Shown piece by piece: positions 32,521 to 37,688 of a stretch of DNA of 64,000 bases. The notes beneath the pieces were generated by a model. It ran no database searches. It worked only from the letters and a program-made list of their open reading frames with translations, and was not told the origin of the DNA. Source of the DNA: Nitrospira sp. KM1 (GTDB lineage Bacteria; Nitrospirota; Nitrospiria; Nitrospirales; Nitrospiraceae). The stretch covers positions 558,001 to 622,000 of the forward strand of contig NZ_AP022671.1 in NCBI RefSeq assembly GCF_011405515.1, written 5' to 3'. How positions within the stretch are numbered: position 1 is the stretch's first letter; each line of letters begins with the position of its first letter. The translations under genes and the position numbers were made by a program.

Positions 32521-32925
32521 TCAACTGGATGGTCGTGAGACGACAGGATCGGGACAGGGATGTTGTTTCCGTCCCGCGCGGATTTTGAGGATAACGGCTG
32601 CAATGACCACGCCGGTCGCGTCGAGCAGCAGATCATCCGAGGATGGAAACCGGCCGTCAACGGTGCCCTGCCGGATTTCGGTCCAGAGACCAAAGACCAG
32701 TGCTGCAGACGACCCCGTCAGGAGGGCATAGGACAATGGCCAGGACCGCTGTTCCAGTTGTCGCATCAGCAGGTAGGCGAGTACTCCGTAAGCAGGGACG
32801 TGGGCGCCATTCAGCACGAACCAGGGAACCTGGACCATCAGATGCCCGCTGAATCCGACTCCTGGTGCGATCATCGCCCCGAGATACAAGAGACACATGT
32901 AGGCACCGGCGGAAATTAATCCCAT
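32521..32925 (-). CDS. VanZ-like membrane protein
   Basis: 134 residues with about four hydrophobic segments. The order hydrophobic helix, H-V-P-A-Y-G-V-L-A-Y-L, helix, then E-I-R-Q-G-T-V-D-G-R-F-P-S-S-D-D-L-L-L-D-A-T-G matches the VanZ-like family (E-x-x-Q-x-x-x-x-G-R-x-x-x-x-D-x-x-x-N-x-x-G). Function in most bacteria is unknown. Ribosome binding site GAGGAG. Confidence 0.75.
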   Translation of the reverse strand: MGLISAGAYMCLLYLGAMIAPGVGFSGHLMVQVPWFVLNGAHVPAYGVLAYLLMRQLEQRSWPLSYALLTGSSAALVFGLWTEIRQGTVDGRFPSSDDLLLDATGVVIAAVILKIRAGRKQHPCPDPVVSRPSS

Positions 32926-33094
32926 GGAGCGCTCCTCGTTATGAGGCTGTCAACCGGAAGGTACAGAAAGACAGGGCGGACAAACCATTGTTCATTGGTA
33001 GGGGGCAAAGACCTGCGGAAGATCGATCGAAACTCGCGTAGGGGAGGTTGTCGTGCGTGAGACGGGACGGGGTTTCTTCTTTCGAAGGGGGGAT

Positions 33095-33622
33095 TCAGTC
33101 CTGCCGTTTTTGTTCCGGCTTTTGATGGATCCATTCCAGCGGCGCAGCCGAACCGCACAGATAGGCTTGACCGAAACCGAGAACCACGTGAGCGTCATGC
33201 AGTTGAAGTTCCCAGACATCAAAATCACCGAATCCAAACATGATCGCAGACTGGGGAAAGCGGGAGAGATAACGGGCCTTCACCGTCGCATAGGCGGAGC
33301 AATCCGGAGAAAGCACGGCGCCCGTGCCTTGAAGGTTCATTCGACGCAACGCAAGCGGATTTTTTTCTGGCTCATCCGGCTCGGATATAAACAAGGAGAG
33401 CCGCGCATCTTGCAGGAGATGCCGGGTGTGCAGAGCGAGCCGGCTGAGATGGAGATAGGCCCTGGTCCAATCATCACCGAATACGTACGGCACATGCGAA
33501 CCGAACGGAAGTCCATCCCGCATCGTGAGCAGGACCGCCGTTCTCACGCCCGCCGCCAATGCCTGCCATGCGGCTTGTACGGCCTTTCGATCCAGCGGCT
33601 CAGAGAGATGACTCATATCCAT
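33095..33622 (-). CDS. HugZ-like split-barrel protein (pyridoxamine-phosphate-oxidase fold)
   Basis: 175 residues with the flavin/haem split-barrel order: an early R-T-A-V-L-L-T-M-R-D-G-L-P-F-G-S-H-V-P-Y strand pair, D-A-R-L-S-L-F-I, N-P-L-A-L-R-R-M-N-L-Q-G and a late H-D-A-H-V-V-L-G-F-G-Q-A. The last block is typical of the HugZ/haem utilisation group. The C-terminal haem-binding extension of true HugZ is absent, so the ligand could be FMN or haem. Divergent from the PEP mutase gene. Confidence 0.75.
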   Translation of the reverse strand: MDMSHLSEPLDRKAVQAAWQALAAGVRTAVLLTMRDGLPFGSHVPYVFGDDWTRAYLHLSRLALHTRHLLQDARLSLFISEPDEPEKNPLALRRMNLQGTGAVLSPDCSAYATVKARYLSRFPQSAIMFGFGDFDVWELQLHDAHVVLGFGQAYLCGSAAPLEWIHQKPEQKRQD

Positions 33623-33854: not shown

Positions 33855-35489
33855 ATGAGCGCCGTACCAGACCTCAACCCTGCCGGGCGTTTTCGAGAAC
33901 TGCTCGAATCGAGCGAACTCACCTTCCTTTGCGAAGCCCACAATGGGATCAGCGCCCGCATCGTTCAGGAAGCAGGCTTCGCAGGAATTTGGGCCAGCGG
34001 GCTCTCCATTTCAGCCCAGCTTGGCGTGCGCGATAACAATGAAGCCAGCTGGACTCAGGTCCTGGAAGTATTGGAGTTCATGTCCGATGCCGTCAAGATC
34101 CCCATCCTCTTGGACGGAGATACCGGCTACGGAAATTTCAACAACATGCAGCGGTTGATTCGCAAGCTTGAGCAACGAAGAATCGCGGCAGTCTGCATCG
34201 AGGACAAGCTATTTCCAAAAACAAACAGCTTTCTGAAAGGGTCCGCCCAACCGCTCGCGGACATGCAGGAATTCTGCGGCAAGATCAAAGCCGGCAAAGA
34301 TGCCCAGACCGATCCTGATTTCTCTTTGATTGCAAGAGTCGAAGCCTTCATCTGCGGATGGGGTCTGGCCGAAGCGTTGCGGCGGGCAGAAGCCTACCAT
34401 CAGGCCGGAGCGGACGGCATTTTGATCCATAGCGCGCTGTCCGTGCCGGACGAAGTGTTGGCCTTCAAACGGGAGTGGGGGAACCGATGTCCGGTGGTCA
34501 TTGTGCCGACGAAGTACTATGCCACGCCGACGGACGTGTTCCGCCAGCACGGCATGTCGATGGTGATCTGGGCGAATCATATGTTGCGGGCAGCCGTGTC
34601 CGCCATGCAGAAGACGGCGCGACAGTTGAAGACCAGCGAGCATCTTCTTTCGATCGAAGACCGGGTGGTCCCGGTCGCGGAAATTTTCCGGCTCCAGAAT
34701 GCCGCAGAGTTGCAGGAAGCCGAAGAACGTTATTTACCACGAGGCGCAGAGAACACGCGGGCAATCATCCTGGCGGCTTCACGTGGCGATGAACTCGGAG
34801 ATCTCACGAAGGACCGCCCGAAGACGATGGTCGCCGTTCAAGGCATTCCGATCTTGGGACACATTGTGGATTCCTACAACGCCGTCGGCATCAAGGACAT
34901 CGTGGTCGTACGGGGATACCAAAAGGATGCGGTCGCGCTGCCTAATCTCACTTACGTCGACAACGACGCATTCGCTCAGACCGGAGAACTGACCTCCTTG
35001 GCCATCGCGCTTCGCCGGCAGACGAATCTGCAACAGGACCTCGTCATTTCATACGGTGACGTGCTCTTTCACAAGTACATTCCTCAAGCGTTGTGCCAGG
35101 AAAAAGATGACTATGTCATTTTCGTCGACAGCGACTGGAAGAATCATACCGGCTATGCGCGGCTTGGGGGCTTTGTGGAGTGCACCAATCCGAATTCGCG
35201 CAAAGCATTTAATGCTACGATTTATCTGAAGCAACTCGGAAACAATCTTCCTGCCGAATTGACCCACGGCGTATGGATGGGATTTCTCAAAGTCGCATCG
35301 ACAGCCGTAGGCAGCTTGCAGCTCATCGTGGAAGAGATGCAGGCCCGCAGCGGCAATGAAAGAGCCGGCATCCCAAAACTGCTTCAAGAACTTGTGAGCC
35401 GTGGGCAGCAAGTCCGTGTTATTTACACGGCGGGACATTGGCTTGACATTAACAGTCTGGATGACGTGATTACGGCGGGATCATTTTGA
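33855..35489 (+). CDS. phosphoenolpyruvate mutase fused to a nucleotidyltransferase
   Basis: 544 residues in two parts. Residues 1-290 are a PEP mutase of the isocitrate-lyase superfamily: [26 protein letters not shown] and the diagnostic [10 protein letters not shown] (116-125), which separates true mutases from other family members. It makes the C-P bond of phosphonopyruvate. Residues about 302-540 are a sugar-phosphate-type nucleotidyltransferase, probably a phosphonate cytidylyltransferase (PntC-like); its signature reads [13 protein letters not shown] instead of the usual G-x-G-x-R-L. Such fusions are known from phosphonate-lipid pathways. No phosphonopyruvate decarboxylase or AEP transaminase is adjacent. 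Confidence 0.88.
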
Positions 35490-35540
35490 ATCAACGCTGA
35501 AGGTAGTCGATGCCAAACCTGAGAATGCGCGTACGGACTC

Positions 35541-35592
35541 AAAACTACGAGTTTACATAATAAGTCTTATCGGACATTAATTTTGTAGTTTT
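35541..35592. promoter_or_regulatory. nested dyad symmetry before the RCK_C gene
   Basis: AAAACTAC (35541-35548) and GTAGTTTT (35585-35592) are perfect inverted copies; between them ATAAGTCTTAT (35560-35570) is an 11-base palindrome. The region is AT-rich and touches the next start codon. It may be an operator or a leader hairpin. Confidence 0.4.
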
Positions 35593-35595
35593 TCC

Positions 35596-36222
35596 ATGTC
35601 ACTGGAATTCCTCGGTCGTCTCCAAAAAGAGCTGTCCTTGACCGGCAACGCGGTTTACGAATCCGTGCTCGCCATCGCCGAACGGGTCAATCGCAAGGTA
35701 CAAATCCTTCGTCTTCATGCACAGGCCGCCAGCCTTTTGAGCCAAATCGAGTCCGTCCAAGGCGAACTCGGGCGCCTGATTGCCGATGCGTCACCCAGCA
35801 AGTCATTTTCACCTAAAGCACAAGAGACGAGGGTCATAGACCTCGACAATACATTTAAGTTGTCAGTCGATCGCGTGCATGAACTGAAGCAAACCTTGAT
35901 TGTCTTGGACAGCCAAATACGGGAACTGAAGATGGAGACCGTGCACGAGAATCTTCTGACCCTCCAGCGCGACCTGGGTCTGCGCGGCGTTTCATTGGAG
36001 CGCTTCATCGTGGCTGACGGGAGCGCAGCCGTCGGCAAGAGCACATCAGACGTTCCAGGATCTGTCAGGTTGTTCACGATTTTTCGGGGACCGTTTCTTC
36101 TCACGCCGTCCGATACCATTCCTTTTCGCCGGGATGATGTCGTCATCGTCATCGCCGCTCGATCGGACCTTGAGGCGCTGGCCGCCTGGTTTGCACCGGT
36201 GCGTCGCGTCAAGACTGCCTGA
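35596..36222 (+). CDS. coiled-coil protein with C-terminal RCK_C (TrkA-C) domain
   Basis: 208 residues. The first ~125 are helical and charged with heptad-like spacing. Residues about 135-205 look like a TrkA-C/RCK_C ligand-binding domain: L-E-R-F-I-V-A-D-G-S, A-A-V-G-K-S-T-S-D-V, R-G-P-F-L-L-T-P-S-D-T-I-P-F-R-R-D-D-V-V-I-V-I-A-A and L-E-A-L-A-A-W-F. Such domains sense small ligands (for example c-di-AMP or NAD) on K+ channels and transporters. No channel or Rossmann domain is present, so it may be a partner subunit. There is no Shine-Dalgarno sequence before the ATG. Confidence 0.65.
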   Translation: MSLEFLGRLQKELSLTGNAVYESVLAIAERVNRKVQILRLHAQAASLLSQIESVQGELGRLIADASPSKSFSPKAQETRVIDLDNTFKLSVDRVHELKQTLIVLDSQIRELKMETVHENLLTLQRDLGLRGVSLERFIVADGSAAVGKSTSDVPGSVRLFTIFRGPFLLTPSDTIPFRRDDVVIVIAARSDLEALAAWFAPVRRVKTA

Positions 36223-36296: not shown

Positions 36297-37688
36297 ATGG
36301 TGCGTCTCAAGCTTGCTATACGTGCCGGGTGGGCGCTCGTTTGTGTGAGCGCCGCCTGTCTCGGTCCGGTCGGTATCCGCGACGCCGGCGCATCCGTCGG
36401 CAACGCGTCGACCGGGCTGCAGCTTCTCGAAGACATCCAGACGGCCATTTCGGAACTGGCTGAGACAGCCAAACCGTCCGTGGTCAATCTCTTCCCGGTC
36501 ACCACCGGGAAAGGCCGGGATTTCCTCCAAGACCGTGCTCCAAACCCCTCCGGGTCCGGATCCGGCGTCATCGTCGACCCGGAAGGACATATCATCACCA
36601 ACAATCACGTCATCGGAGATGCGGCCGAAATCGAAGTTCGCCTTTCTGACAAGTCCAAACTTATCGCACAGGTTGTAGGGAAAGACCCCGACACCGACCT
36701 GGCCGTATTGAAAGTCACCGTCGATCATCCCCTGCCCAGCGCCAAGTTCGGAGACTCTTCCGGCGTTCGAGTCGGTCAATGGGTGCTCGCCGTGGGAAAT
36801 CCGTTTGGATTAGACCGCACGGTCACATTGGGCGTGGTCAGCGGCATCGGCCGCGAGAATGTGAACCTCTCGCGTTATGAAAATTTCATTCAGACCGATG
36901 CCTCGATCAACCCGGGCAACTCCGGCGGCCCGCTCTTCAATCTGCGCGGTGAAGTGATCGGCATCAATACTGCCATCATCAACTTCGCCCAAGGCATCGG
37001 ATTCGCGATTCCCTCCAACATGGCCAAGCAGGTGCTCCAACAGCTGCTTGCCCAGGGACGCGTCGTCCGAGGGTGGTTGGGCGTGGGCATCCAACCCTTG
37101 ACGCCCGAGCTGGCACGGAAATTCGGAGTCACGGAGAACGAAGGCGTGCTGGTCAATGAGGTGTTCGAACGCGATCCCGCCGCCGCCGCCGGGATCAAAC
37201 CCGGCGACGTCATTACTCGCATCGAGGGAGCCGTGGTTGACACCCCCAACCGCCTGTCCCGAGTGGTGGCCGGACTGCTGCCCGGCGCCACGACAAAAGT
37301 CGAGGTCGTCCGGAACCGGCAGCGGATGGTGCTCGATGTCGCATTGACGGAGCGCCGAGACCAGCCAGTCGTCGCCTCACTGCCCCAGTCTCGGACCGAT
37401 GCCAAACTCGGATTGGATCTCCAGGATCTCACGGCCGCCCTGGCCGAGAAATTCAAACTCCGCGAGAGCAGAGGCGTCCTGATCACGCGCGTGGAATCCG
37501 GCAGCCTCGCCCACTCGGAGGGACTGCGCGAGGGGGACCTGATCAAGGAAGTCAATCGTATCGACGTCGGCTCTGTCGGCGAATTTACCGCGGTGATTGC
37601 CAAAGTCCGCCGCGGCGAAACCGTCCTGCTCCGCGTGCTCCGGGAAAGCCGGGCGTTCTATGTCGTGCTGAAATCCGGCGACCACTGA
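36297..37688 (+). CDS. HtrA/DegP-like periplasmic serine protease
   Basis: 463 residues: signal peptide, trypsin-like protease with catalytic H104 (T-N-N-H-V), D134 (D-T-D-L-A-V) and S209 (G-N-S-G-G-P-L), and two PDZ domains (about 262-345 and 365-460). It should degrade or refold damaged envelope proteins. The start at 36297 has CAGGAG before it. The protein cannot be assigned safely to DegP, DegQ or DegS; two PDZ domains exclude DegS. Confidence 0.92.
   Translation: MVRLKLAIRAGWALVCVSAACLGPVGIRDAGASVGNASTGLQLLEDIQTAISELAETAKPSVVNLFPVTTGKGRDFLQDRAPNPSGSGSGVIVDPEGHIITNNHVIGDAAEIEVRLSDKSKLIAQVVGKDPDTDLAVLKVTVDHPLPSAKFGDSSGVRVGQWVLAVGNPFGLDRTVTLGVVSGIGRENVNLSRYENFIQTDASINPGNSGGPLFNLRGEVIGINTAIINFAQGIGFAIPSNMAKQVLQQLLAQGRVVRGWLGVGIQPLTPELARKFGVTENEGVLVNEVFERDPAAAAGIKPGDVITRIEGAVVDTPNRLSRVVAGLLPGATTKVEVVRNRQRMVLDVALTERRDQPVVASLPQSRTDAKLGLDLQDLTAALAEKFKLRESRGVLITRVESGSLAHSEGLREGDLIKEVNRIDVGSVGEFTAVIAKVRRGETVLLRVLRESRAFYVVLKSGDH

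Follow-up and report, generated by a model that had tools for sequence, protein, structure and literature searches.

A PEP mutase-nucleotidyltransferase fusion in Nitrospira sp. KM1 and a distant gene block for a probable aminoethylphosphonate pathway

Nitrospira sp. KM1 encodes, in the 64-kb stretch of DNA analyzed here (the window, C1:558001-622000 of a genome that consists of a single contig of 4,509,223 bp), a PEP mutase fused to a nucleotidyltransferase. This mutase, termed type A, very probably feeds a 2-aminoethylphosphonate (AEP) pathway whose other genes form a block at a distance of 2.48 Mb on the same chromosome. The two are presumably unlinked because type A replaced the ancestral mutase of that block, termed type B. 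What pulls the equilibrium of the mutase reaction is most likely the customary decarboxylation step, with the enzyme supplied in trans. An earlier note on this DNA had considered either a phosphonate-modified lipid or polysaccharide made with scattered genes or a pathway in which the equilibrium is pulled in another way than by a decarboxylase. The block at C1:3075097-3080522 supports the first branch, and the second was not borne out, as a split decarboxylase-like pair is encoded in the same chromosome. The features concerned are listed in Table 1.

Table 1. Location of the features discussed. Positions without a prefix are those of the window.
Feature	Location	Strand	Remarks
Type-A PEP mutase-nucleotidyltransferase fusion gene	33855..35489	+	544 aa, one ORF; TIGR02320, PF13714, PF12804
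PEP mutase domain, residues 1-296	33855..34742	+	Alignment to mussel PEP mutase 1m1b
Gating-loop motif, residues 116-125	34200..34229	+	Identical in 39/39 aligned type-A rows
Fused nucleotidyltransferase domain, residues 298-544	34746..35489	+	PF12804 (NTP_transf_3), 44 bits, above cut-off
Altered nucleotidyltransferase signature, residues 306-315	34770..34799	+	Glu313 where PntC-type enzymes have Arg
TrkA_C/RCK_C protein gene	35596-36222		Downstream of mutase; 208 aa
HtrA gene	36297-37688		Downstream of mutase
PpdA (putative split ThDP decarboxylase)	L007 12098-12598	Block strand	TIGR03297, 130 bits, model positions 1-155
PpdB (putative split ThDP decarboxylase)	L007 12592-13173	Block strand	TIGR03297, 172 bits, model positions 168-357
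AEP transaminase (PhnW/AepZ-type)	L007 13217-14299	Block strand	TIGR03301, 338.5 bits
PntC-like nucleotidyltransferase	L007 14296-15015 (C1:3077295-3078014)	Block strand	Best PDB match PntC 6pd1
CDP-alcohol phosphotransferase	L007 15033-16421	Block strand	CDP-OH_P_transf
HpnL/flippase-like membrane protein	L007 16531-17523	Block strand	
Full-length phosphonopyruvate decarboxylase after type A	L083:9665-10828		Same position in another 23 family genomes with type A
PpdA-PpdB-AEP transaminase trio in mutase-less genera	L076:8930-11262, L077:6057-8536, L078:7347-9700, L079:4387-6713, L080:7557-9879		62-73% identical to that of KM1
Type-B mutase-nucleotidyltransferase fusions, examples	L081:6269-7945; L148:9001-10677	-; +	

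The window gene and its neighbors

The window protein scored 386.2 bits against TIGR02320, the PEP mutase equivalog, over residues 13-283 (cut-off, 319.55 bits), and its mutase match, with an E value of 7e-116, is far beyond chance. It remained below the cut-offs of the models for phosphonopyruvate hydrolase, methylisocitrate lyase, and CPEP mutase; the hydrolase model TIGR02321 gave 224.7 of the 374.4 bits required, and position 122 is occupied by Asn instead of the Thr that marks the hydrolase. Close similarities exist with the PEP mutase of Mytilus edulis (1pym/1m1b), namely, an identical gating-loop motif, an alignment to 1m1b of 428.9 bits over window residues 12-296, and the same residue at 17 of the 18 active-site positions of 1pym that were checked, the exception being Ala in place of G45. 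The residues D58, D85, D87, E114, K120, N122, S123, R159, and H190 are kept, and the EDK(X)5NS motif is present. The mutase half of an AlphaFold2 model of the protein (mean pLDDT, 89.9) matched 1pym with a Z score of 41.6, an rmsd of 1.3 Å, and 65% identity over 289 residues; the solved mollusc enzyme differs in that it has no fused nucleotidyltransferase. The gene is intact and conserved: most of the 89 other genomes that have it show 75-79% identity. It is a true PEP mutase, with predicted activity, and the claim to this effect that had been made from residues 116-125 is thus borne out by the TIGR02320 score, the motif, and the active-site residues. No second mutase was found in the KM1 genome: the sole other strong PF13714 match was methylisocitrate-lyase-like and was rejected as a candidate for this reason.

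Neither a decarboxylase nor an AEP transaminase is encoded in the window, as had been noted before: the whole-genome searches gave no decarboxylase-family match in these 64 kb, and the AEP transaminase matches of KM1 are located at 3.08 and 3.55 Mb. The next genes are indeed, as the earlier note had it, those for an RCK_C protein and then HtrA; the range of 33855-36222 that it gave to the mutase feature takes in the RCK_C gene, which is a separate gene with no sign of belonging to it. Both neighbors were rejected as mutase partners, given that, of 10 further type-A loci whose broad flanks were mapped, none has RCK_C beside the mutase and that only distant HtrA proteins (43-44% identity), some kilobases off, were present near type-A loci, in three genomes (G128, G130, and G080). 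The RCK_C protein consists of a TrkA_C/RCK_C domain without a channel or antiporter part. Genes for PNPOx/CREG-like and VanZ-like proteins (window 32521-33622) have kept their order beside the type-A mutase in another genome (G014; L095:9004-10098).

The six-gene block and the proposed pathway

The search of the genome for the decarboxylase family identified its two halves as adjacent genes at C1:3.075 Mb, as part of a block in which all six genes have the same orientation. TIGR03297, the phosphonopyruvate decarboxylase (Ppd) model, is matched in its first half by PpdA and in its second by PpdB, so that both halves of the family are present; their 130 and 172 bits are spread over two proteins, whereas the cut-off of 312.5 bits was set for one whole protein. 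Compared with the TIGR03297 enzymes and with the ComDE sulfopyruvate decarboxylase (TIGR03845/TIGR03846), PpdA/PpdB are two genes instead of one, and their scores lie between the families. For the predicted AEP transaminase, TIGR03301 was the best family by far, with 338.5 bits at a cut-off of 360.8. The nucleotidyltransferase of the block has the AEP cytidylyltransferase PntC (6pd1) as its best PDB match over its full length (residues 2-238), and its signature, AAGVGKRLWQVTQHRPK, conforms to GxGxRX4-8PK, with a Lys at the T/S place. The earlier note had held that a complete cluster elsewhere in the genome would make the case ordinary, and by this standard it largely is.

The N-terminal half of the CDP-alcohol phosphotransferase has no Pfam match, and the domain order of this protein recalls archaeal inositol-phosphate cytidylyltransferase/phosphotransferase enzymes. 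One family genome (G098) carries at C1:1224271-1227555, about 16 kb from its intact block, a second, broken copy of the AEP transaminase and CDP-alcohol transferase genes, with internal stops and pieces of 55-75% identity.

In the pathway proposed, the window gene product would convert PEP to phosphonopyruvate, and PpdA and PpdB would convert the latter to phosphonoacetaldehyde, which would constitute the irreversible pull. The PhnW/AepZ-type transaminase would then form AEP, which the PntC-like nucleotidyltransferase of the operon would turn into CMP-AEP, and the CDP-alcohol phosphotransferase would transfer AEP onto a lipid or another alcohol. The HpnL-like membrane protein perhaps moves the product. 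Judging from these last two proteins, an AEP-bearing lipid would be the best guess for the end product. The assignment of PpdA/PpdB as a decarboxylase is not claimed as certain, mainly because the trio of PpdA, PpdB, and AEP transaminase persists in genera that have no mutase.

The persistence of this trio in four mutase-less genera, together with the 182 bits of PpdB on the sulfopyruvate decarboxylase beta model (cut-off, 221), slightly above its 172 bits on Ppd, would also be in line with a block that encodes a sulfonate pathway, made up of a sulfopyruvate decarboxylase and a transaminase, in a genome where the window mutase is stray or decaying. This is highly improbable, and the sulfonate pathway was rejected on the finding that ComA, the PEP-sulfolactate synthase, is present in none of the 12 genomes tested, KM1 among them. 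Furthermore, both the PntC-like nucleotidyltransferase and the CDP-alcohol phosphotransferase of the block depend on a substrate of the phospho or phosphono kind, all 36 testable type-B genomes have a mutase-type gene transcribed divergently from the block, and split PpdA/PpdB of other phyla (L191, L192, L193, L195, and L196) adjoin canonical EDK(X)5NS mutases. The intactness and conservation of the window gene mentioned above also argue against decay.

The AEP pathway leaves the second domain of the window protein to be considered. This domain falls into the LicC/PntC-related NTP_transf_3 family, as judged from PF12804 and from a profile of fused domains and standalone nucleotidyltransferases, for which the best PDB matches were LicC of Streptococcus pneumoniae (1jyk, 80 bits) and PntC of Treponema denticola (6pd1/6pd2; 69 bits with 6pd1); the domain was assessed by sequence alone, the Foldseek and VIA-align lists being filled by the mutase domain. 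PntC and LicC are the best PDB relatives of both the fused-domain family and the operon nucleotidyltransferase; the operon copy keeps the Arg of GxG(T/S)R, and the window domain does not. Its sequence departs from GxG(T/S)RX4-8PK in that Arg is replaced by Glu, with the PK kept. In PntC, this Arg helps to bind pyrophosphate, and the Ala mutant has <10% activity (PMC6697681). The modified signature reported in the earlier note is real and conserved: Glu occupies the position in 40/40 type-A sequences, Gln is found there in 64 of the 70 Nitrospirota type-B sequences, and GxGxR is retained in 83/92 standalone nucleotidyltransferase genes.

A signature altered in such a conserved manner could mean an unusual substrate, and no decarboxylase is encoded near the window mutase; the fused nucleotidyltransferase might, for example, use phosphonopyruvate directly and pull the equilibrium without any decarboxylase. 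There is hardly any likelihood of this, given the decarboxylase-like pair in KM1 and in 141 of the 147 family genomes and the full-length Ppd that follows directly 3' of the mutase in some type-A relatives. An unusual pull was rejected once the decarboxylase pair had been found in the genome. Within the AEP pathway, the operon nucleotidyltransferase is likely to make CMP-AEP, and the fused domain would have another or a reduced role.

Such fusions are common. Rice et al. reported that about 60% of mutases are fused to another domain and that a third of all mutases are fused to NTP_transf_3 (PMC6697681). The fusions with pnt (phosphonyl tailoring) clusters described in that study (2019) share with KM1 the domain families, the EDK(X)5NS motif, the coexistence of a fused and a standalone nucleotidyltransferase, and a genome with a decarboxylase, an AEP transaminase, and cytidylyl-type chemistry. 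KM1 differs from them in that its mutase lies apart from the other pathway genes, its decarboxylase is split into two subunits, and its fused nucleotidyltransferase has Glu for the conserved Arg.

Two mutase types and one block across the family

Of the 147 family genomes surveyed, 141 encode PpdB, 140 the AEP transaminase, and 134 the CDP-alcohol transferase. A mutase-nucleotidyltransferase fusion was found in 129 of the 147, with type A in 90, type B in 39, and both types in none. Identity to the window protein is 75-79% for most type-A proteins and about 36% for type-B proteins. The two types also differ in location: in all 36 genomes with both genes on one contig, type B is divergently transcribed at 1.3-4.6 kb from PpdB, whereas type A was near PpdB in 0 of 87 genomes, the 10 same-contig cases being 0.95-3.6 Mb apart.

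On a tree of PpdA, PpdB, and AEP transaminase (52 genomes), the A/B label needs at least five changes. Type B is the type of its deepest branches that have a mutase, and KM1, with type A, stands alone amid type-B sisters such as N. japonica. A simple chance figure for the exclusion of one type by the other would be too strong because the genomes share ancestry, and the at least five changes are a fairer measure of it. The mutase tree, whose root is unreliable owing to a very long outgroup branch, is used here solely to tell type A from type B. A block that is static while the mutase is repeatedly swapped, with exactly one kept, is what would be expected of two mutase types that supply one and the same decarboxylase.

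We infer from these data that the ancestral mutase of the block was type B, which still lies divergently beside it in relatives, and that replacement by type A would have left the mutase unlinked. A possible source of type A is seen in 24 family genomes among those fetched, in which a full-length Ppd (484.7 bits; cut-off, 312.5) is located directly 3' of the type-A gene; the same order is found in one genome of a sister family. This downstream Ppd is absent in KM1 and others. The simplest history would be that a mutase-decarboxylase pair entered or spread in the order and then took over from type B, and that some lineages lost type A's own decarboxylase as PpdA/PpdB were already present.

The absence of a mutase and the absence of the CDP-alcohol transferase coincide in the family genomes. 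The four genera that keep the PpdA-PpdB-AEP transaminase trio lack both, and ComA was not found in those of them that were tested. Three of the four were sampled for the tree of the block, and they lie at its base. It is possible that the trio acts on another substrate as well.

Type B as a probable mutase and the meaning of the swap

Of the 103 sequences aligned from the type-B searches, 95 carry EDN[VI][YF]PKRCS where canonical mutases have EDK(X)5NS; in this set, some genomes are counted twice, 7 sequences are canonical, and 1, from a thaumarchaeal contig, reads EDNVFPKRNS. Their TIGR02320 scores of 273-285 bits fall under the cut-off of 319.55, and they lack the EDK(X)5NS motif; type B is not filed here as a PEP mutase member, and its mutase-like working is argued from context. 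Record titles place type B in at least six phyla (Nitrospirota, Rokuibacteriota, Myxococcota, Planctomycetota, Acidobacteriota, Binatota, and others). PpdA/PpdB adjoin 62/80 loci overall; if only the 73 loci with the EDN motif are counted, the number is 57. An AEP transaminase and a nucleotidyltransferase are often present as well. Type B keeps D58, D85, D87, E114, K120, S123, R159, and H190; the changes are Asn for Lys116, Cys for Asn122, and the neighbors L48F and H240Q.

These changes bear on the question of whether the two types share their chemistry. Cys at position 122 is also found in 4iqd and ICL-type lyases, and, according to a review (PMC7916636), Asn122Thr is the change that most authors hold responsible for the difference between mutase and hydrolase. 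Type B, with its Asn for Lys116 in addition, might therefore be, for example, a lyase or a hydrolase, in which case the exclusion would be a coincidence of lineages and the window gene would not be a simple replacement. Such a difference in chemistry is rather unlikely: the type changed at least five times on a conserved block with no genome holding both, type B adjoins PpdA/PpdB in several phyla, the other checked catalytic residues are kept apart from the L48F and H240Q neighbors, and the closest PDB relative of type B in both sequence and structure is a PEP mutase, that of Streptomyces (5unc; Z score of the type-B model, 41.5; 51% identity). The evidence leans toward type B being real PEP mutases without the EDK(X)5NS loop that is held to be diagnostic, as an overlooked class of C-P bond makers spread broadly over at least six phyla, and toward their repeated replacement in Nitrospira by the canonical gene seen in the window.

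Phosphonate clusters in Nitrospira have already been reported (PMC9765116). The present analysis closes an apparent gap in the phosphonate pathway of a nitrifier: the puzzle raised by the earlier note is explained by a canonical mutase that very probably works in trans with a complete cluster elsewhere, and the missing linked decarboxylase is no evidence of unusual chemistry. The remaining interest is in the swapping of types A and B and in type B itself. Two surveys accept a mutase only with EDK(X)5NS (PMC6697681, PMC8931226) and would discard type B because this motif is required. If type B makes C-P bonds, surveys filtered in this way count too few producers in Nitrospirota, Planctomycetota, Acidobacteriota, Myxococcota, and others. 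Cultured strains carry either type (A in KM1, B in N. japonica and N. moscoviensis), and this swap represents a natural experiment on the role of the motif.
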